This document shows positions 9,001 through 43,683 of a stretch of DNA of 49,653 nt, in pieces. The notes beneath the pieces are model-generated. The model had not been told where the DNA came from. It was given only the letters and a program-made list of their open reading frames with translations, and ran no database searches. Position 1 is the first letter of the stretch. Each line of letters begins with the position of its first letter. Origin of the DNA: a virus; IMG/VR virus record IMGVR_UViG_3300046467_000794, positions 1 through 49,653 of that record; one strand, 5' to 3'. The translations under genes were made by a program, and so were the position numbers.

Positions 9001-10796
9001 CCCGAGGGCTGGAGGCTTGCGTCCTCGACCGTCATCCGGGAGATCTCCACCTCATTCCGGGGCACTTGGAACCTATGAGTCTTCAAGTCCTCGTCGTACT
9101 CAAGGACATCCAAGTTCTCGTAGGCGTACTCCTTGCTGAAAAGGAAGGTGTCTCCGTACAGGCGTGTGGCCCCGCCTCCGCTGATCCGACGCACGAGGCC
9201 ACAGCCCCTTGGGCGCGTTTGCGGGGGGTTGGACGCGATGTTGGCTGCTGTGGGGGTCTCCCCCGTACCGTCCTCCTCCCAGCGGATGCCACTGATGCCC
9301 GGAGGGGGCAAGCACACGGCCCGAGGCACCCAGACCTTGCCACTCATCTCCACCACAGCGTGGGTGCCGTCCAGGGGTTGTCCTGCCTCGTTCAGCGCCG
9401 CTATGGGTGCCTTGAGGGGGAGGGGCTGGGTGTTGAGCGCCAGCCCGTCGAAGTACAGGCGTGCTCCGAGGTAGGGGATCTCGTAGTCAGCGGGGTCCGT
9501 CGGGGTTTCTGCTCCGGGAGTGCAGCGAGCGATGTCTGCATCGGAGAGTACGATCTTGCCAGTCGCCTTGCTCCACTGGAAGGAACCTGTAGTGACCCCC
9601 GATGGGGCATCGAGATCAGCATCCGTTTCCACAGGGATTGGGGTCAGGTATCGCCTTGACCCGATCCGCAGAAAGGGCCGGTCTGTGGCCTCGGGGGTGG
9701 GGGACAACGACGGGAAGCCCTGGTTGGACCCGGTGGGAAAGTCCACCATGGCACCCATGTCGCCATCAGCATCCGGCAGGTAGGTTTCCGCGTTGTACCA
9801 GAGGTCGCGCCCCGCTTCGTCTGTTGCGAAGGCCGGGTTGAGGAGCAACACACCAGCAGTGACACCCACAACCGCATTGAAGGCGTCCCAGGCACCATTC
9901 CAATCGCCGCTGGCGTTTGCATCGGACACGACGAGGATGTTCAAAGGCGTGCTGTCTGCGTCTGCATAGAGCCCGCAGCGCACCAACGCGAACGCATCAG
10001 GGTCAGCGGAGTCACCCGGAAGTTGATCATTGATCTCAAAACGGGAGACCGGCGGCACCAACTTGTACTCTTCCTCTGGCATCACCGCGCCCAGCGTTTG
10101 CGCGGCCCCTCCCCTCAAAGGGAGCCATCGAGAAGTCTTGCCGTCCCACCCAAAGCGAGTCATGGCGGGATCGTTCTTCGTCCACCAAAAGGCGGGACTC
10201 GCCAACAGGTAGGCCGTCGCTACGATGGCATCTCCCCGCTCCGCAGAGAAACCCCCCTCCAGGGCGAGGATGGCAGTTGCGTCGAGTGTGACCTTCCCGA
10301 TGGTGGGATCATCATTGATGACCCCGCACACGATGACCTCGGGAAGAGGAAGAACCTTGAGGACTGTGATGGAAATGACTTCCGAGATGTCGCGCTGGCC
10401 TTCATCTCGGATGTAAAAGGAGGTGGTTCCGTCATTGTATAGAGGGATAGCAGTCGGTACCGGCAACGTGTCGGGGATGGGGTCTCCAGTAGAGGAGCCG
10501 CCCACGATAGCCATCGTGACGTCTTCAACCGTGCTTAGAGAGCCTGTGCTCGCCGCGAAGACGCAGTACTGCTCGGTCCCCTGCTGGGATTCCGGCTTCT
10601 CCAGCACCGCAGCCCGGTACATGTCCGCATAGGGCTCCACAGGCTCCACTGGGATTACTTGGTAGCCCAAAGCGGTCATCGTATCGGGCAGGATGTGGTC
10701 GCGGTCTACACCTGTGACCGCTTCGTTGGAGTCCTGGGCATTACCGGACGCCACACGGGCAGGACGAAGCACATAACCGTTGAGATTGAAACCCAC
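1..10796 (-). CDS. Giant virion/baseplate-associated protein, 3' end beyond window
   Basis: I translated the complementary strand codon by codon from a GTG at 10796 to the left edge and met no stop: 3598 sense codons, with the true C-terminus outside the window. The GTG start is chosen because GAGGG lies 7 bases upstream and the frame is closed by a TGA shortly before. The preceding gene ends 10 bases away. The sequence is rich in Asp, Gly, Pro and Thr, has no signal peptide or long hydrophobic segment, and alternates beta-rich stretches, as in phage fibre or baseplate proteins. An 11-residue in-frame duplication (HFSRLFP repeated) lies near residue 1950, a VYSL pair near 2080-2120, and a GDVVRVVDENG-type module near 3440. 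It closes the tail operon, after spike and hub, so a baseplate periphery or host-contact role is inferred. No enzymatic motif was recognised. Confidence 0.9.
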   Translation of the reverse strand, partial: MGFNLNGYVLRPARVASGNAQDSNEAVTGVDRDHILPDTMTALGYQVIPVEPVEPYADMYRAAVLEKPESQQGTEQYCVFAASTGSLSTVEDVTMAIVGGSSTGDPIPDTLPVPTAIPLYNDGTTSFYIRDEGQRDISEVISITVLKVLPLPEVIVCGVINDDPTIGKVTLDATAILALEGGFSAERGDAIVATAYLLASPAFWWTKNDPAMTRFGWDGKTSRWLPLRGGAAQTLGAVMPEEEYKLVPPVSRFEINDQLPGDSADPDAFALVRCGLYADADSTPLNILVVSDANASGDWNGAWDAFNAVVGVTAGVLLLNPAFATDEAGRDLWYNAETYLPDADGDMGAMVDFPTGSNQGFPSLSPTPEATDRPFLRIGSRRYLTPIPVETDADLDAPSGVTTGSFQWSKATGKIVLSDADIARCTPGAETPTDPADYEIPYLGARLYFDGLALNTQPLPLKAPIAALNEAGQPLDGTHAVVEMSGKVWVPRAVCLPPPGISGIRWEEDGTGETPTAANIASNPPQTRPRGCGLVRRISGGGATRLYGDTFLFSKEYAYENLDVLEYDEDLKTHRFQVPRNEVEISRMTVEDASLQPSGYENASRIQFRRRPVRDEPLYFRSAEAIPSVYADEARIFSRFREDYTFIGSEIIRFAIDNVPYEWGAITLNPTGIAADYSAEDVVADMIANSTPALPAANVGVIRGRIFLQADNLSTGSVEIGWNDPNGAYPDTDQTDLSGHAALGFLPGWRVDMDDAEDRFRWLPDNGSYIGVFRSPVNMDRTASIPDVRAVDRLDDTLLSDSIPANPFLTLTPPPLLDVPGYSDVSHFQVVLGILFIDMENYQTTLDVGVVYDWVNDRLIWSAEGTTSGTQVPYPTSTLQLEHVAVFPETVDPLAMDDTTFGLNLRRATDVVGQTLPADFTGSPDDFTIDFLMPGEGQPGQAELVTPEGEEVAAGGKGTFNSGISAFYDMNVSDQTALYDAVEPGYLLHILGGDGEGIYTITFKGTSVSPATFTVSPTFAATESSAQWRIYKAQTRDDVDLTLLADVQRVVTNHFPEEPFKVRVLTSAGVVGHDGTAPLPLNAIVVDAIASNRVVRLRFGLEPQFPLVDFELVPTYLVRGVNLGLVMASGLVCPDLTDPHLTLSVTASYFQIRVGAMPFSTTDGNLTLNVGSVNVGDIDVDTSTGEILVGVDVVSELGGSPVYFDQLFLNPDDLPSKECEINGSDGEISIPTGAATAEAGKTAYLVEQMVTENKLDVVTNPMNGSVLFNKPLREWQIVEVNYFQADTNGDKALDDNGDEIEITEFLSLMVTLEVATYINDTQWSFNPTERTVSEKVEEFMWVGSNLMNFAGVSNATAIDNVITIIDEAAALLETDAETVVKINYGVLEAFGGESAYTVSTPPVFRKPFWIEAEASTFTLETDRTGDFLAGLLMVLGPTFLYIDSSIYQADTDETTVTVFPPPEREAGSRAPGRDAGLTLSDFLVSVSRGGSPGFMPTLDTAVTPLLEMDKGQVTAIFYGDVRQWMKTNHLLEIGGYPYLIVASAMSEDGYNTLVQLGTPAYKAHDNSEEVRVSVRQVYAPAPVEFRGISPFVPSEEYDLFLMGRVDSDGTDLPGKVLVEGMDYTVDPASGDVVFQHPTQAALQPGQYLHFRYTRLIAVGPTAADGAVLYPVYRGRYLYMVTPSVENRLLGAVLKAQYSYRSQDSFFYSIQMMEEYLGEVSVVSAKQGVIPYSGGPAFFTAGAEDISKKGGFGLRGGAEDAANQDRGARVFVEFFNGVILAFEQVLEAIDGRIIGDRDGKFRFFIGHDKRYSPPGYEDAITGNLNNRLLWREIIDAWAPSAFASNDGYFRTKDIIYLPPAAEVPFPDAAVPEGRPGETSGPTMDPALFTFFVDQQHRYIKNDMDDRVLVKLGKPIFDFSGTFMFPVLTFKGNFDGMWEDHRFSRLFPTETEHFSRLFPGINYDPATQYPGFFTPGRDIEVPGPEPGETSEQTVSTTFKPNGVVSNNALGEIPNIIEVNAQPRQARGRVWAYYPSGSTELDTALGIITVGYATIVATPLTLGEFPIDPDTGFPDVSDMVTSTNPTGTVYSLESGNPDMATPVFEVGQRANYGKPDGSVYSLKDSDGNGIYVESVLAGCVLILGTTDDGGSSFDKVGGNGVFVDGASTDRLDTVISDDDGYADTVFIGVGSGAAWDDGASTSDAEELAELQAAMAEAIPNYRMRFDLGLGKLQGNFKDVTLPGPDDNFFLDLQALFGQKPPDPLTCVEGSVQFINTDTEPLKLPCLLGEDKDDSGDQQIPFMKGVPNELQVLGEVAPLLEGIYEDTGYTTPYAPAYYPSDEEQVFKAVYPDETFVGDGELYEATVWAGYPKNPATLYTDRKLDEATVWNTANPTLTDNTGLGDLRRFDLLFSQVEQGAESTGFWEGATGILEVADVVYEVNGTDTPGTIEIPRFVSPAMKGAVESPMPLADRSHRYTLRGWAAYVEETEGGNEGVKIPTASTYDGPSSTWTTVIDFSTITNSSSTGVMPDLSLLDGIINLGAAAGVFNAFVIRIYDPDPNANPGEAFLGAITIVTGNGMLVRTYFYNALTGNIQAPSPGGHPVFGSDTITLNYWTGWPGSTDSLEDALGLNIGTNYDFRLDIDTYGDVETGSVSSNAVVGGNCIGSETCAVLRDRLTFTELLDFTLAKPRDYLPANGDSVELGAALNVWEITANGVSGLTVNDATEINGSAGLYLTFLNRLTIDGVTPGYSADTLNYVGTFDAGTNTGAVRLMSWEGHGNIPLAPTSGTEIEGITLSAASSSDLQATVGEAGDYIICAGTYTFYDGDSDLTRVITDIGTYVLEGNRNYLLTGTGSVGGPTNIVPNDICVIGGNPSFVDLDGGAVKCGTYLVRHAVPDGDGTYVTEETSQMILSGQEDPAVSGVGALLLAGRQWHEPGVAPFPASQATGPSADTWDGNTTDPTAGSSGADYLPAGDGFVDLTFPTISAFDEDAETITLTGVLTVMGSPSAPTSGTAGHGWGASGRLYLILKNQYASYSEDVDGSGPDPANTGWIVDADSVYSVAYSSVTDWDYATGTLVINTNVTVDPTTGPRYADDDTLDPADFWAAVALHVGGNVSGMTYFGIRQMGSHLPGNNLLGPEMRDGAHDLMAGFQSITIGNRNATMLDPALDINGLSPLAADDVWRVFSAGSNLVHDIEGFFPVGADEMVAGIPTPQDNTEFYPRKKAVVYGRMYQPDSSGGIRTDPVAGVCTYLQTDAYPDWWASWKEIHFGDDKEVYHLSGTLISAERLYRSLGCLLPSDRWVASNNIDPIGDGTKGDPGFFAYSGVFLEPSFPRPVQNINNDQRKVVAESYDTLTTDTIGARDYEPFSAATVPRTEHESVFASIRRTRRWHQIQIDIIDLVEPLRYVYEIRRGFMGSYDDASRTLVALTTVYDGYATNLGAFDDDDVNIHAGDVVRVVDENGEVLDTAEIQRVEDATTLILRRPGLTNPAIVGDEEFEVYIEQAIVPHEQSNEQLLDLLTQEVVFTRRVPYVDPAEDGGFIDVDNEMKDTAVTSWTEEGVQEDDYVIIDPAGPLYNVLEQGARPFGDSSVVSRPVDPPYI

Positions 10797-39541: not shown

Positions 39542-39576
39542 TGGGGGCTCCAGAAGGCTATGCGAGGAGTAGTTCT

Positions 39577-39591
39577 ATAGGAAGGCTACCG
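39577..39591 (-). promoter_or_regulatory. Promoter-like motif copy (9 of 11)
   Basis: Minus strand CGGTAGCCTTCCTAT, 35 bases upstream of the ATG at 39541, overlapping the TAG stop of the preceding gene. Confidence 0.65.
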
Positions 39592-39939
39592 GCGTTCTTT
39601 TTGAAGCAGGATTGTGATCTCATCAAGACTCTGATTCACAGCATCCATATCCTGCGAGATCTCTTGCAGGAGGGCGGTTTGCTCTGTGAGGGCTTGGTGC
39701 ATCTGTTGGTCTTCGGGGGTGTTGACCTGGACCTGCTTCGGGACCGGGTCAGCGTGCGGGTCGTTTGGGGGGAGCACCGTGATCTCGATGGCACTATCAA
39801 CCAGTTGTACTTCATCGGGGGTTTTAATAGAGCACACGTAGGTGCGGTAGAACGCGAGGAAGGCCGCCATGGCCAGCAGGACACTGACAGCAGCAGCAGC
39901 CTTGCCCTTACCTTTCCAGAAGAATGGAGCGAATCTCAT
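39586..39939 (-). CDS. Membrane-anchored coiled-coil protein
   Basis: 117 residues from ATG 39939 (GGGAG 5 bases upstream; a TTG just before is possible). A basic start (WKGKGK) leads into one membrane helix at about residues 14-33 (AAAAVSVLLAMAAFLAFY), then a Pro/Asp-rich spacer and a C-terminal coiled coil (about 80-115). This N-in type II layout with a periplasmic coil resembles inner-membrane spanins, and the start is embedded in the neighbouring gene, which is also usual for lysis cassettes. There is no lipobox and no endolysin in the window, so the lysis call is only a possibility. Confidence 0.7.
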   Translation of the reverse strand: MRFAPFFWKGKGKAAAAVSVLLAMAAFLAFYRTYVCSIKTPDEVQLVDSAIEITVLPPNDPHADPVPKQVQVNTPEDQQMHQALTEQTALLQEISQDMDAVNQSLDEITILLQKERR

Positions 39940-40207
39940 CAAGTCTCCCGTTGGCAGTGTCGATTTTCCCTTCCAGCCGCGCCAGATGCAAAGCGTTCTG
40001 TTGGACCCGGTCGTCGATTTCTTCGATCTCCGAAAAGCGCACCTCTAACCTTGTTACCTCACTCTGTGCCTGTTGGATAATCAAGTCCCTCTGGGCGTTT
40101 CCCGTCTCCAACTTGACGATCCAAAGTAGCGCCGGGATTACCAAGATCACGAGGATGTCCTTGCCCCACTGAAGGGCTTTGGTCTGTGTCTGGGGCGCTT
40201 CGGACAT
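39908..40207 (-). CDS. Membrane-anchored coiled-coil protein (holin/spanin-like, tentative)
   Basis: 99 residues, ATG with AGGAG upstream. Residues 15-33 form a membrane helix (DILVILVIPALLWIVKL), followed by a continuous amphipathic helix to the end that would coil. The gene overlaps the next membrane protein gene by 32 bases. Two overlapping small membrane genes with coiled coils suggest a lysis module, for example a holin or i-spanin pair, or a membrane-tethered complex. No signal for either is decisive. Two tandem copies of the promoter-like motif lie upstream (40239 and 40321). Confidence 0.7.
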   Translation of the reverse strand: MSEAPQTQTKALQWGKDILVILVIPALLWIVKLETGNAQRDLIIQQAQSEVTRLEVRFSEIEEIDDRVQQNALHLARLEGKIDTANGRLDEIRSILLER

Positions 40208-40238
40208 GGACAGGCTCCTGCTCTATCTGGTGGTAGGT

Positions 40239-40253
40239 ATAGCGAGGCTACCG
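40239..40253 (-). promoter_or_regulatory. Promoter-like motif copy (10 of 11)
   Basis: Minus strand CGGTAGCCTCGCTAT, 31 bases upstream of the ATG at 40207. An identical 15-mer lies 82 bases further upstream. Confidence 0.65.
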
Positions 40254-40320
40254 CTGCAACCGGGAGGAGTTCCCTCTCGACCCCTCGGAAGGAATAGTGG
40301 CCCGATGTCCAAGAGTAAGT

Positions 40321-40335
40321 ATAGCGAGGCTACCG
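40321..40335 (-). promoter_or_regulatory. Promoter-like motif copy (11 of 11), tandem
   Basis: Minus strand CGGTAGCCTCGCTAT, identical to the copy at 40239. No start codon follows within 40 bases, so the two probably act as tandem promoters or a double operator for the same transcript. Confidence 0.55.
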
Positions 40336-40369
40336 TGTCAGATTTCTCGGGGGCTCAAAAACGACGAAA

Positions 40370-40399
40370 GCGCCCCCGTGCTGGGGGGCACGGGGGCGC
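40370..40399 (-). terminator. Rho-independent terminator
   Basis: A 12-bp perfect GC-rich stem (40370-40381 with 40388-40399, 6-base loop) just after the gene ending at 40406. On the minus strand it is followed by TTTCGTCGTTTTT, a good U-rich tail. It separates that gene from the tandem motif copies. Confidence 0.85.
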
Positions 40400-40405
40400 G
40401 GTACT

Positions 40406-40771
40406 CTACAGGTCCAGAGGCAGACCATCTTCGCCGTGCGTTTCAAAGAACGCCTCGGGCATCCACATACACAGTCCTTTCAGCGGGCCGGAAACGGGTG
40501 CCCCCATCAACAGGAACGTCGCCCAAGGCTTCTCGGTCACGGGGTAGACCCTGATGGTCTTCCCGGTCTTGAGAGTGTGCTTGATCGAAAACTCGGCACA
40601 GTCATGAAGGCGCGTGACGCCCTCTTGCTCTGGGATGAACACCTTGCCGGTCTCATCGAGTTTCTGTTTGATCTGGGGAACCCACTCCTCCTCGATGATG
40701 CCAAGTCGGAGGTAGTACTCCAAAAGGCGGTCGAGATAAGGACGGGGGGTATCAGAAGGGGTGATAAACAC
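40406..40771 (-). CDS. Phage protein, unknown function, unusual start
   Basis: 121 residues. The only classical start in the frame is a GTG at 40771, but the Shine-Dalgarno AGGAG touches it, while an ATC six bases further on would be at 5-base spacing from AGGAGG; a TAG closes the frame 6 bases upstream of the GTG. The protein begins with a helical part (PYLDRLLEYYLRLGIIEEEW), then beta strands (RLHDCAEFSIKHTLKTGKTI) and a hydrophobic WATFLLMGAPVSGPLKGLCM stretch. No family is recognised. Its leader carries the covarying hairpin described in the findings. It is followed by a strong terminator, so it is likely a single-gene unit. Confidence 0.65.
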   Translation of the reverse strand: MFITPSDTPRPYLDRLLEYYLRLGIIEEEWVPQIKQKLDETGKVFIPEQEGVTRLHDCAEFSIKHTLKTGKTIRVYPVTEKPWATFLLMGAPVSGPLKGLCMWMPEAFFETHGEDGLPLDL

Positions 40772-40787
40772 CTCCTATATGGGGCCG

Positions 40788-40826
40788 CGTGAGTCTCCCC
40801 CTCACGTTGGGGTGCCACAGGGGCGG
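40788..40826 (-). ncRNA. Conserved leader element with hairpin, copy 1
   Basis: On the minus strand a 22-base box (40805-40826, CCGCCCCTGTGGCACCCCAA plus CG) runs into a 6-bp hairpin (40788-40806) with loop GGGGAGA, then about 11 bases to ATAGGAGG. The same arrangement precedes the gene at 41125-41532 with a different but still paired stem, which supports a selected RNA structure in the 5' leader. Confidence 0.6.
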
Positions 40827-41014
40827 GGGATGTTGGGGTCGGTATCAGCCGGGGCGCACGAGGCGCACCGTGCCGTTTCGTGACCGATCCATGACACTGA
40901 GCCTCGGCAACCTGCAAAGCAGATCCGCACTGGTTGGCTCTGGTGGCGTGGAGTCAGGACACGGGTAGCGGTGTTGAAGTTCCGCAGGGTCGTGTGGACC
41001 CTTGGCTTCGTCAT
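40802..41014 (-). CDS. Possible small Cys-rich protein, doubtful
   Basis: 70 codons with an ATG at 41014 but no ribosome binding site. It would contain CFAGC and RCASC pairs, a zinc-ribbon-like spacing, and end Pro-rich within the leader element of the next gene. It fills most of an otherwise gene-free 350-base interval (40772-41124). It could be a real small zinc protein, or chance open sequence in a leader; I lean slightly towards chance. Confidence 0.3.
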   Translation of the reverse strand: MTKPRVHTTLRNFNTATRVLTPRHQSQPVRICFAGCRGSVSWIGHETARCASCAPADTDPNIPRPCGTPT

Positions 41015-41068
41015 AGGATGGGAAAGGGCCGATAGGCGCTCCAGGGTTGGGGTTGGGGTCGAGGGAGA

Positions 41069-41111
41069 ATGAAGCCTCTCACTCCGACAGAACCGGAGTG
41101 AGAGGCTTCAT
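41069..41111 (-). terminator. 18-bp perfect hairpin, terminator
   Basis: Bases 41069-41086 pair without mismatch with 41094-41111 around a 7-base loop, 13 bases downstream of the gene ending at 41125 on the minus strand. The following sequence is only mildly U-rich (ATTCTCCCTC). Confidence 0.8.
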
Positions 41112-41124
41112 GGACATGGCTCGG

Positions 41125-41532
41125 TCAACGCTCTTCTTTGGGCTCCCCGAACCACTCCCCGTTGGGGCGCTTTCGGGTGAATCCCAGATCGTCGAGAGCC
41201 TCGCGGTACACCGCTCGGTACAACTGCCGCATGGCAGTGACCGGGGGGTACTTGTCTTCCGTGAAGAGATCATTGAGGCGCTCTGCGAGCACCTCGATGA
41301 TCTCCCTGTTGGCTCCGACGCCAACAGGGAAGCACTTGCGAGGGTTTGTTCCGACGATCCACGAAGCGTAGTCGTAGGCGTTGATGGCAGTGTAGGTGCC
41401 GTCTTGCCTAAGAATCCCCAGTGCTCGCAACTCCGGGCCTTTCCTCTTGCCTGAGCGGTGGTACTTTTTCAGACCATCACTCAGAGGAACGTACTCGATT
41501 GCGGCGAACATGGGTTTGCTGGTGGGTTCCAT
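41125..41532 (-). CDS. Phage protein, unknown function
   Basis: 135 residues; the ATG follows AGGAGG with a short 3-base spacing, and a second in-frame ATG (codon 8) is a possible alternative. It shows beta strands at the N-terminus (FAAIEYVPLSDG), basic residues (KKYHRSGKRKG), then TYTAINAYDYASWIVGTNPR and two helices (EIIEVLAERLNDLF, MRQLYRAVYREALDDL). The C-terminus is basic-aromatic. Charge pattern fits a nucleic-acid-binding protein. The 5' leader matches the leader of the gene at 40406, so the two are probably co-regulated. Function unknown. Confidence 0.7.
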   Translation of the reverse strand: MEPTSKPMFAAIEYVPLSDGLKKYHRSGKRKGPELRALGILRQDGTYTAINAYDYASWIVGTNPRKCFPVGVGANREIIEVLAERLNDLFTEDKYPPVTAMRQLYRAVYREALDDLGFTRKRPNGEWFGEPKEER

Positions 41533-41551
41533 AATCCTCCTATGTGGGAGT

Positions 41552-41590
41552 CGAAGACCTCCCCTCTTCGTTGGGGTGCCACGGGGGCGG
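41552..41590 (-). ncRNA. Conserved leader element with hairpin, copy 2
   Basis: Minus-strand box at 41569-41590 (CCGCCCCCGTGGCACCCCAA plus CG) followed by a 6-bp stem (41552-41557 with 41565-41570) and loop GGGGAGG, then about 9 bases to ATAGGAGG. Four of six stem base pairs differ from copy 1, all by compensatory changes. Confidence 0.6.
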
Positions 41591-41611
41591 TTTATGTGGG
41601 GTGCTCAGACG

Positions 41612-41720
41612 ACAGAACGAATGGGCTGTTTGCGCCGGACATGGGTCGCATGATCTCGATGGTGTTTGGTGTGCTCTCACCGAACAAAACGCATGGGCTG
41701 TTTGGGGCGGACATGGGTCC
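41612..41720. repeat. Two-copy 72-base direct repeat
   Basis: An imperfect unit with ATGGGCTGTTTG and CGGACATGGGTC occurs at about 41630-41647 and 41692-41719 (72-base offset between the GACATGGGTC cores), preceded each time by GTGCTC. The period is a multiple of three, and short minus-strand frames repeat every 24 residues through it, but none has good start signals. It lies between ligase and the leader element. Confidence 0.6.
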
Positions 41721-41784
41721 ATCCCTCGCGAACGATCAACCCGGCGGAGGGGGGTATAGGATCTGGGGTCACTGTTGTCCGGTG

Positions 41785-43683
41785 TCAGACCCGCGCCCGC
41801 ATCTCATCCAGACCGATGACCTCGATGCCGAGACCGCGTGCCTTCTGGGCCTTGCCCGAGGTCGAGTTGGGGTCTTTGGCGACGAGGATGGTCAGGTTCT
41901 TGGAGACACTGGACTTGATAAGCCCCCCGGCAGCGGCGATAGATGCCTCCAGAGCCTTGTCACGGACTCCGGTGAAGCACACAGCCTGACCAGTCATGGT
42001 GCCCGTTGCAGGGGCCGCAGGGGCGACGTAGGGGGCCACGGTGACACCCTCGCGGTAGAGGTCGAGGATCGTCCCCTTGCGAGCGTCGAAGCCCGCTCGG
42101 AACGACTCTGCCTTGCCCTTGCCGAAGCCGGGGACCGCGCTCAACTGACCCTCACTCGCGTTCGCGATGGCGTTGAGGTCCGTCATGCCAGCGGCCACCA
42201 GTTTCCGCACCATGCGGCGACCGCACAGGGGGATACCCAGCGAGCCAACGTAGGTGTCCAGGGGCAGCGTCTTGAGGCCGTTCAGCGAGTCGAGTGCCCG
42301 CTTCGCAGCACCTCCGACCCTGCGCCCTTCCATGTCGAGTGCGCCGACTGCCGTGGCGTCGAGTCGGTAGAGGTCAGCGATGGTCGAAACCATGCCAGCG
42401 TCAACGACTGCCTGGAGCAGCGCATCCCCGAAGTGGAGGACGCCGACCTTCTTGAGCCAGCGTCGGATGGCACCGAGGGTCTGAGCGGGGCACCCCTCGT
42501 CAGGACACATCAGGTACTCCCCGACCATGTTGAGGAGCGTGCTGCACTCTGGACACTCGTGAGGAGCCTCCAGTTCGTCCTTCATCGGGTCTTGCGAGAC
42601 CAGTGCCTCGACGTATGGAATCACATCGTTGCGGCGGGACACGAGGATGCCAGCACCCTCCATGAACCCGTTGCCGTCCGTGAGCCGACCGATGTTCGCC
42701 ACGTTGTGAAGGCTGGCTTGCTTGACCGAGGCCCCAGCGAGTTCAACAGGGTCAAACTCGGCAACGGGGGTCACGCGACCCGAGTTCCCCACCTGCCAAC
42801 GGATGTTCCGCAGGGTTGTGGTCCGGGCTTCGTGGGGAAACTTGTACGCGATGGAGCCAGCCGGACGGTGGTTCTTTTCGCCCACCAGTTTCCAGTCGTT
42901 GGTGTCGTCCATAATGAGGACCAACCCATCGATCTCGTAGGGCAGCGCGTCCCGTTCGCGCTGAACGTAGCGGTCGTAGACCGCCTGGATCTGGACCACG
43001 GCATTCGCCGTCTTCCACTTCGGGCAGGTGAACCCTGCCGAAGCGAGAGCCGTCAACTCTTGGTGCTTGTGGGTCAAGACCCCAACATCGGGGGTCATGT
43101 CGAAGGCAACCACAGTGAGGTGTTTGCACTTCGCCGGGTTTGACTGGCGCTTCGCGGTGCCCGCAGCGGTGTTCCTGGGGTTGCTGTCCCCCTGGAAGTG
43201 GGCGTTGAAGTCAGCCTTGTAGCAGACGATCTCGCCTCGGATGTAGCCGGACCAGTCACCCATCTGTGCGGGAAGGCCCTTCATGAGCCGGACGTTGGAG
43301 GTGATGTCCTCACCCGTGATCCCGTCACCACGGGTGACGGCTTGCGTGAGGGTGCCATTGTCGTAGCGCAGGCTGATGGAGATCCCATCCAACTTGTCCA
43401 CTACAAGCACGGCGGGGCTGTCCCCAACGGTGTTGGTGAACCAGTGCTGCATCTGGGGTTGGTCCTGAGCCTTGTTCAAGGAACCCATCGGGGTCTTGTG
43501 GGTCACCTTCGCCCAGCCGGACGAGGGTGCGGTTCCCACGTTGCCGAGAACGGGGTGGTTAGGGGCGAGCGCACGGAGGCTATCCTCCAGCGCATCGAAC
43601 TCCGCATCTGTCATGGTAGGGGTGCCCGCGTAGTACGCGGTACGTGCCTCCGTGATCGCGGAGGCAATCGTGTTGGGGTTCAT
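41785..43683 (-). CDS. ligA: NAD+-dependent DNA ligase
   Basis: 632 residues, complete LigA architecture. Residues 1-60 are the NAD+-binding Ia-type helices, the adenylation domain has Lys97 in VVDKLDGIS and Arg118 in TRGDG, then NPRNTAAGTAKR, EIDGLVL and YKFP motifs. The OB fold follows (TPVAEFDPVELAGASVKQAS), a Cys4 zinc finger (Cys377, 380, 393, 398), helix-hairpin-helix repeats (about 420-550) and a C-terminal BRCT domain (from about 555). It joins nicks using NAD+. It is slightly shorter than bacterial LigA (about 670) and keeps all domains, whereas many phage ligases are truncated. The KLDGIS form (Ile for the usual Leu) is a small deviation. AGGAG precedes the ATG within the upstream gene's TAG region. 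Confidence 0.97.
   Translation of the reverse strand: MNPNTIASAITEARTAYYAGTPTMTDAEFDALEDSLRALAPNHPVLGNVGTAPSSGWAKVTHKTPMGSLNKAQDQPQMQHWFTNTVGDSPAVLVVDKLDGISISLRYDNGTLTQAVTRGDGITGEDITSNVRLMKGLPAQMGDWSGYIRGEIVCYKADFNAHFQGDSNPRNTAAGTAKRQSNPAKCKHLTVVAFDMTPDVGVLTHKHQELTALASAGFTCPKWKTANAVVQIQAVYDRYVQRERDALPYEIDGLVLIMDDTNDWKLVGEKNHRPAGSIAYKFPHEARTTTLRNIRWQVGNSGRVTPVAEFDPVELAGASVKQASLHNVANIGRLTDGNGFMEGAGILVSRRNDVIPYVEALVSQDPMKDELEAPHECPECSTLLNMVGEYLMCPDEGCPAQTLGAIRRWLKKVGVLHFGDALLQAVVDAGMVSTIADLYRLDATAVGALDMEGRRVGGAAKRALDSLNGLKTLPLDTYVGSLGIPLCGRRMVRKLVAAGMTDLNAIANASEGQLSAVPGFGKGKAESFRAGFDARKGTILDLYREGVTVAPYVAPAAPATGTMTGQAVCFTGVRDKALEASIAAAGGLIKSSVSKNLTILVAKDPNSTSGKAQKARGLGIEVIGLDEMRARV

Follow-up and report, generated by a model that had tools for sequence, protein, structure and literature searches.

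A structured leader common to two unrelated genes of a probable phage, and its possible role in translational control

Two genes that have no sequence similarity to each other, in the genome of an uncultured virus that is probably a phage, are headed by a common leader, which consists of a nearly invariant box, a hairpin with a constant purine loop and a variable but fully paired stem, and a Shine-Dalgarno sequence. We tentatively suggest, as a possibility somewhat short of even, that this leader is a cis-acting RNA operator, at which a regulator binds and controls the initiation of translation in both genes. That the element works at the RNA level is moderately supported. The preliminary description of this DNA had called it a cis-regulatory RNA; the conserved, structured leader, likely to act as RNA, stands, and the regulation is something that we infer, as we do the pseudoknot, the regulator itself, transcription running across the leader, and repression as opposed to activation.

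Results

The stretch of DNA that was analysed (the window) is the whole of IMG/VR virus record IMGVR_UViG_3300046467_000794, 49,653 bases long and classed as linear. Known families account for few of its proteins, the clearest case being the product of ligA (41785-43683). Along the minus strand come ligA, then genes B and A, each with a terminator-like hairpin behind it, and then a membrane protein gene:

41125-41532, minus strand: gene B (135 aa), outside known families and with no relative found
41069-41111, minus strand: terminator-like hairpin 3' of gene B, with perfect 18-bp arms
40406-40771, minus strand: gene A (121 aa), likewise outside known families, with an orthologue in the related contig L054 (56% amino acid identity)
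40370-40399, minus strand: terminator-like hairpin 3' of gene A
39908-40207, minus strand: conserved gene for a small membrane protein

A comparison of genes A and B revealed no similarity (BLASTP E 5.4), and judged by their sequences the two proteins are non-homologous, which indicates that they did not come to share the leader through duplication of one ancestral gene. The predicted folds of both products were of low confidence (mean pLDDT 44-45).

The preliminary description had reported a shared box, a 6-bp hairpin with a GGGGAG(A/G) loop and ATAGGAGG ahead of both genes, and each of these parts was recovered where it had been placed, on the minus strand. The layout in both cases is the box CCGCCCCYGTGGCACCCCAACG, stem-GGGGAGR-stem, 8-9 bases, and ATAGGAGG:

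40805-40826, minus strand: 22-base box of leader A, its final CG being the start of the stem
40788-40806, minus strand: hairpin of leader A, CGTGAG GGGGAGA CTCACG (arms 40801-40806 with 40788-40793)
40771-40778, minus strand: Shine-Dalgarno sequence ATAGGAGG of gene A, its last G being the first base of GTG
41569-41590, minus strand: 22-base box of leader B
41552-41570, minus strand: hairpin of leader B, CGAAGA GGGGAGG TCTTCG (arms 41565-41570 with 41552-41557)
41536-41543, minus strand: Shine-Dalgarno sequence ATAGGAGG of gene B, 3 nt 5' of ATG

The two boxes are identical at 21 of 22 positions, and the similarity between the leaders reaches further upstream than had been described, to CTGA-N(3-6)-CCC..ACAT. 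Across the 49,653 bases of the record there are exactly two occurrences of GTGGCACCCCAACG, and ATAGGAGG alone shows no enrichment there (33 matches at one mismatch, compared to 28.6 expected). Three copies of the leader are known in total (A, B and one in L054), and every one of them lies directly 5' of a gene start with a Shine-Dalgarno sequence.

Most of the difference between leaders A and B is concentrated in the stem, where 8 of the 10 differences within the 38-base core are found in the arms (hypergeometric P 0.00035). Four of the six stem pairs differ and all six are paired in both leaders, as had been claimed, and when one leader is given an arm of the other, the stem is lost. Pair counting gave four double changes with 100% paired cells, a result matched by 6 of 500 shuffles, and the chance that all four changed column pairs would still pair is about 1 in 81; all of these figures are indicative, as the apparent compensatory change comes from one comparison, that of the paralogous pair A and B, chosen after the fact. 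These phages show no general enrichment of hairpins upstream of gene starts (seen at 9 of 232 genes, compared to 6.8 expected), suggesting that the leader hairpin is special to genes A and B.

Examination of two related contigs revealed that the leader-gene units differ in their presence between relatives:

L054 (G001), IMGVR_UViG_3300012953_000012, 205,564-base contig: gene order as in the window, with ligA first, then leader A with gene A, and last the membrane gene
L153 (G003), 67,944-base contig: ligA, then directly the membrane gene

Gene B is absent from the 205,564-base contig, and gene A, gene B and the leader are all absent from the 67,944-base contig; of the two units, that of gene A is thus shared by the window and L054, that of gene B is confined to the window, and L153 has neither. 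ligA and the membrane gene are kept throughout, and we regard the leader-gene units as accessory elements that were gained or lost. The terminator-like hairpin that follows gene B in the window (41069-41111) has its counterpart 3' of ligA in L054 (1478-1518), where the loop GGTTCTGTCGG is kept and the stem differs, which suggests that gene B was inserted between ligA and this terminator.

The 42-nt core of leader A, including both stem arms, is identical in L054. This run is the longest identical stretch of the compared interval, exceeding any in ligA, and it lies between genomes whose nucleotide identity is 78% in ligA, 68% in gene A and 55-64% in the non-coding flanks. The contrast between core and flanks, together with the co-variation of the A and B stems, supports the earlier suggestion that the leader is under selection. 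Homologous leaders with an unpaired stem had been named as the finding that would speak against it; the one orthologous leader has a stem identical to that of A, and its sequence adds conservation, not covariation. Stem sequence is therefore the same in orthologous leaders and different between the paralogous leaders A and B. The identity between orthologues indicates that stems are not simply free to vary, and the stem bases may matter in their own right, carrying a gene-specific meaning.

The total folding energy of the whole leaders was no better than that of shuffled sequences (z about 0). The hairpins alone have energies of -7.7 (A) and -5.3 (B) kcal/mol, and an alternative CCCC/GGGG hairpin has -7.0 kcal/mol in both leaders. 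An invariant CCCC, located two bases 5' of the stem, can pair with the GGGG of the loop, and when every H-type pseudoknot was scored without bias, under a simple penalty of 9.6 kcal/mol, one and the same pseudoknot proved optimal in A and B. Its predicted parts are S1 (4 bp, CCCC/GGGG), L1 (AA), S2 (the 6-bp stem), no L2, and L3 (AGR), with S1 positioned as follows:

40797-40812, minus strand: predicted S1 of leader A, CCCC 40809-40812 with GGGG 40797-40800
41561-41576, minus strand: predicted S1 of leader B, CCCC 41573-41576 with GGGG 41561-41564

A 2-nt loop across six pairs and a 3-nt loop across four are within the known limits for H-type folds. The score of the predicted pseudoknot was equalled by 12 of 500 shuffles of leader A and 20 of 500 of leader B (2-4%), and 4 of 232 other gene leaders scored better than leader A. 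S1 is invariant across the leaders, and its pairing takes no support from covariation. On this modelling, the leader hairpin and the CCCC/GGGG pairing are predicted to form a compact H-type pseudoknot. Pairing of the loop with the anti-Shine-Dalgarno sequence, as proposed in the preliminary description, is less economical than pairing of its GGGG with the invariant CCCC. An outer helix between the box and the Shine-Dalgarno sequence appeared in the fold of leader A and was dropped, being inconsistent over the three leaders. Compared with other genes, Shine-Dalgarno accessibility was in the lower third for A and B and in the upper tenth for the L054 leader.

Searches for additional copies returned little beyond these leaders. 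The box alone matched at least 119 stretches in IMG/VR, and besides the window the only real leader among the matches listed was that of L054, the others being due to chance. Tighter and structure-based patterns in IMG/VR likewise recovered L054 only, with chance matches in L130, L146 and L147; GTDB genomes yielded five chance matches, all without the stem; BLAST against phages and plasmids gave no significant match; and a covariance model, run on the window, G001 and G002 and then on the whole of G000, G001 and G003, gave three strong matches only. The further covarying copies hoped for earlier were thus not found in IMG/VR, GTDB, phages, plasmids or the covariance-model search, and three copies of a well-conserved leader constitute modest evidence. 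Neither the window nor G001:1-140000 had an Rfam match at the gathering threshold, the interval 40300-41800 gave chance matches only at E up to 10, and literature searches found no paper describing such a leader. The suggestion that the element is undescribed therefore holds as far as tested.

Several known element types were also compared with the leader and set aside. Inspection found no pair of core sites such as an integron attC-like site would have. The leader hairpins are followed by CGGCCCC and ACTCCC, with no direct U run of the kind that marks an intrinsic terminator or attenuator, and a terminator scan did not report them on the minus strand. An N4-like hairpin promoter was set aside because N4 hairpins have 3-nt loops.

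Discussion

If the leader is a translational operator, as we tentatively propose, its core would be the 6-bp hairpin, displaying the GGGGAGR loop, and the predicted pseudoknot would terminate 8-9 bases 5' of ATAGGAGG. An RNA-binding protein of the phage or the host, most likely of the phage, would recognise the constant parts of the leader and, once bound, would keep the 30S subunit off the neighbouring Shine-Dalgarno sequence, so that genes A and B would be controlled together. We can also postulate a more speculative and rather improbable extension, in which a portable, pseudoknotted translational operator moves with unrelated accessory genes of this little-known phage lineage, the stem being gene-specific and the loop and box constant, and in which one phage-encoded RNA-binding protein reads all copies. 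Newly acquired genes would then join one post-transcriptional regulon. Most known phage translational operators come from T4 and from RNA phages, and a compact leader in control of unrelated accessory genes would show how phages bring gained genes under common post-transcriptional control and would represent a small, portable RNA control part.

We tentatively place the leader among phage translational operators, without membership in a family. The T4 gene 32 pseudoknot has been called perhaps the only viral example in translational autoregulation (PMC3014915). Like that operator, the leader would be part of a phage mRNA with an H-type pseudoknot, here a predicted one, upstream of the ribosome-binding site, and the T4 element is used for translational control, a role that is conjectural here (PMC3014915). 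However, the T4 pseudoknot lies upstream by 67 nt, where it serves to nucleate gp32 on a stretch rich in A+U (PMC3014915), whereas the fold predicted here adjoins a G+C-rich start and is common to two unrelated genes. The gene 43 operator of T4 and RB69 resembles the leader in being a small hairpin by the ribosome-binding site, with a constant loop and a stem that may vary between phages, but it has a UAAC loop and serves one autoregulated gene, compared to GGGGAGR and two non-homologous genes here (PMC3014915).

Similarity to the SAS and ESAS of cluster K mycobacteriophages bears on whether the leader acts as RNA or as DNA. These too comprise a conserved sequence with an ATAGGAG end at the starts of unrelated genes, some with an upstream inverted repeat (PMC3203893, PMC11373665). 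The SAS is a 13-bp sequence, GGGATAGGAGCCC, at the start codon, with 11-19 copies per genome (PMC3203893, PMC11373665); the leader has only ATAGGAG in common with it, and occurs in 1-2 copies per genome and three in all. ESAS arms are 17 bp long, conserved in sequence and carry promoter hexamers (PMC11373665), unlike the 6-bp leader arms, which differ with compensation and have no sigma-70-like site. The reported location of promoter hexamers inside the ESAS inverted repeats (PMC11373665) nevertheless lends some weight to the alternative that the conserved block acts as DNA, being a promoter or operator of the phage with the inverted repeat as a protein-binding site. A long, exactly conserved block within non-coding DNA would be expected of such an element, and because each leader-gene unit lies 3' of a terminator-like hairpin, a promoter is needed somewhere between. 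We consider a DNA element unlikely, although it retains an appreciable chance, as the half-sites of a DNA operator keep their sequence, and the leader arms have changed at four of six positions and kept only their complementarity. In addition, no sigma-70-like site was found in the leader region, and the probable promoter motif of the lineage, GGTAGCCTCGCTATA, is located elsewhere and not in the leaders.

Another conceivable reader of the RNA is a CsrA/RsmA-type protein of the host, whose dimer would bind the loop GGA and bridge to the Shine-Dalgarno GGA. The anatomy is similar to that of the CsrA-repressed E. coli glgC leader, in which a loop GGA is closely followed, at similar spacing, by a second site that covers the Shine-Dalgarno sequence (PMC7652899), and such binding would account for a constant loop on a variable stem. 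By sequence, the two GGA motifs are 19-20 nt apart, within the reported range of 10-63 nt and above the 18-nt optimum (PMC7652899). However, the CsrA consensus is RUACARGGAUGU (PMC7652899), and the A two bases 5' of GGA is missing in leaders A and B, which have GGGGA and UAGGA; only the L054 Shine-Dalgarno sequence has AUGGA. The leader stem has 6 pairs, compared to 4 or fewer in most selected CsrA ligands (PMC7652899), the invariant box would be left unexplained, and no csrA was found in the three phage records. We consider a CsrA-type mechanism very doubtful. We give equally little credence to a purely mutational origin, in which template switching between the arms of a quasi-palindrome rewrote the stem in one step and pairing reflects the mechanism of mutation. 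Leaders A and B do differ simultaneously at all four inner pairs and are otherwise little changed, and the gene B terminator and its L054 counterpart likewise have a common loop and different stems. However, the leader core is far more conserved in L054 than its surroundings, which calls for selection, and template switching would not preserve the box, the loop and the distance to the Shine-Dalgarno sequence. Improbable to a similar degree is a recombination seam with no role in translation, the block serving as short homology for the exchange of gene cassettes, as proposed for T4-type promoter/stem-loop cassettes. The patchy presence of the gene A and B units in the window, L054 and L153 fits such exchange, as does the boundary sequence GACCCATGTCC..GTTCTGTCG that is repeated around the units, but a pure homology seam offers no reason for complementary changes in the arms or for a fixed Shine-Dalgarno distance.

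Additional observations

Upstream of leader B, at 41589-41719, are two tandem-like 59-nt repeats with a spacing of 72 nt, 75% identity and the sequence GACCCATGTCC..GTTCTGTCG; they resemble L054 sequence 3' of ligA. The start of gene A is ambiguous (40763-40778, minus strand): the final G of AGGAGG is also the first base of a GTG, and 5 nt past AGGAGG there is an ATC, which might serve as a rare start codon. In L054 (1820-1840, CACATGGAGGTGCTTATC) an in-frame ATG lies within the Shine-Dalgarno sequence of the gene A orthologue. Between the upstream terminator and leader A is a small open frame that starts with ATG in L054 (GGAGCCCTATG, 1552-1758) and with ATC in the window (GGAGCGCCTATC, about 41032, minus strand); a second frame in this region is likewise partly conserved, and both are no more than candidate coding sequences.

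The conserved, non-coding motif GGTAGCCTCGCTATA(C), a probable phage promoter of this lineage, is present on the minus strand of the window at 40233-40253, 40315-40335 and 39576-39590, in L054 at about 2265-2285 and in L153 at about 9872-9890. Upstream of the membrane gene it is a run of 19 nt that is identical between relatives. The relative G001 also encodes a 3824-aa protein with no Pfam match (L138:8029-19503, equivalent to G001:128029-139503).
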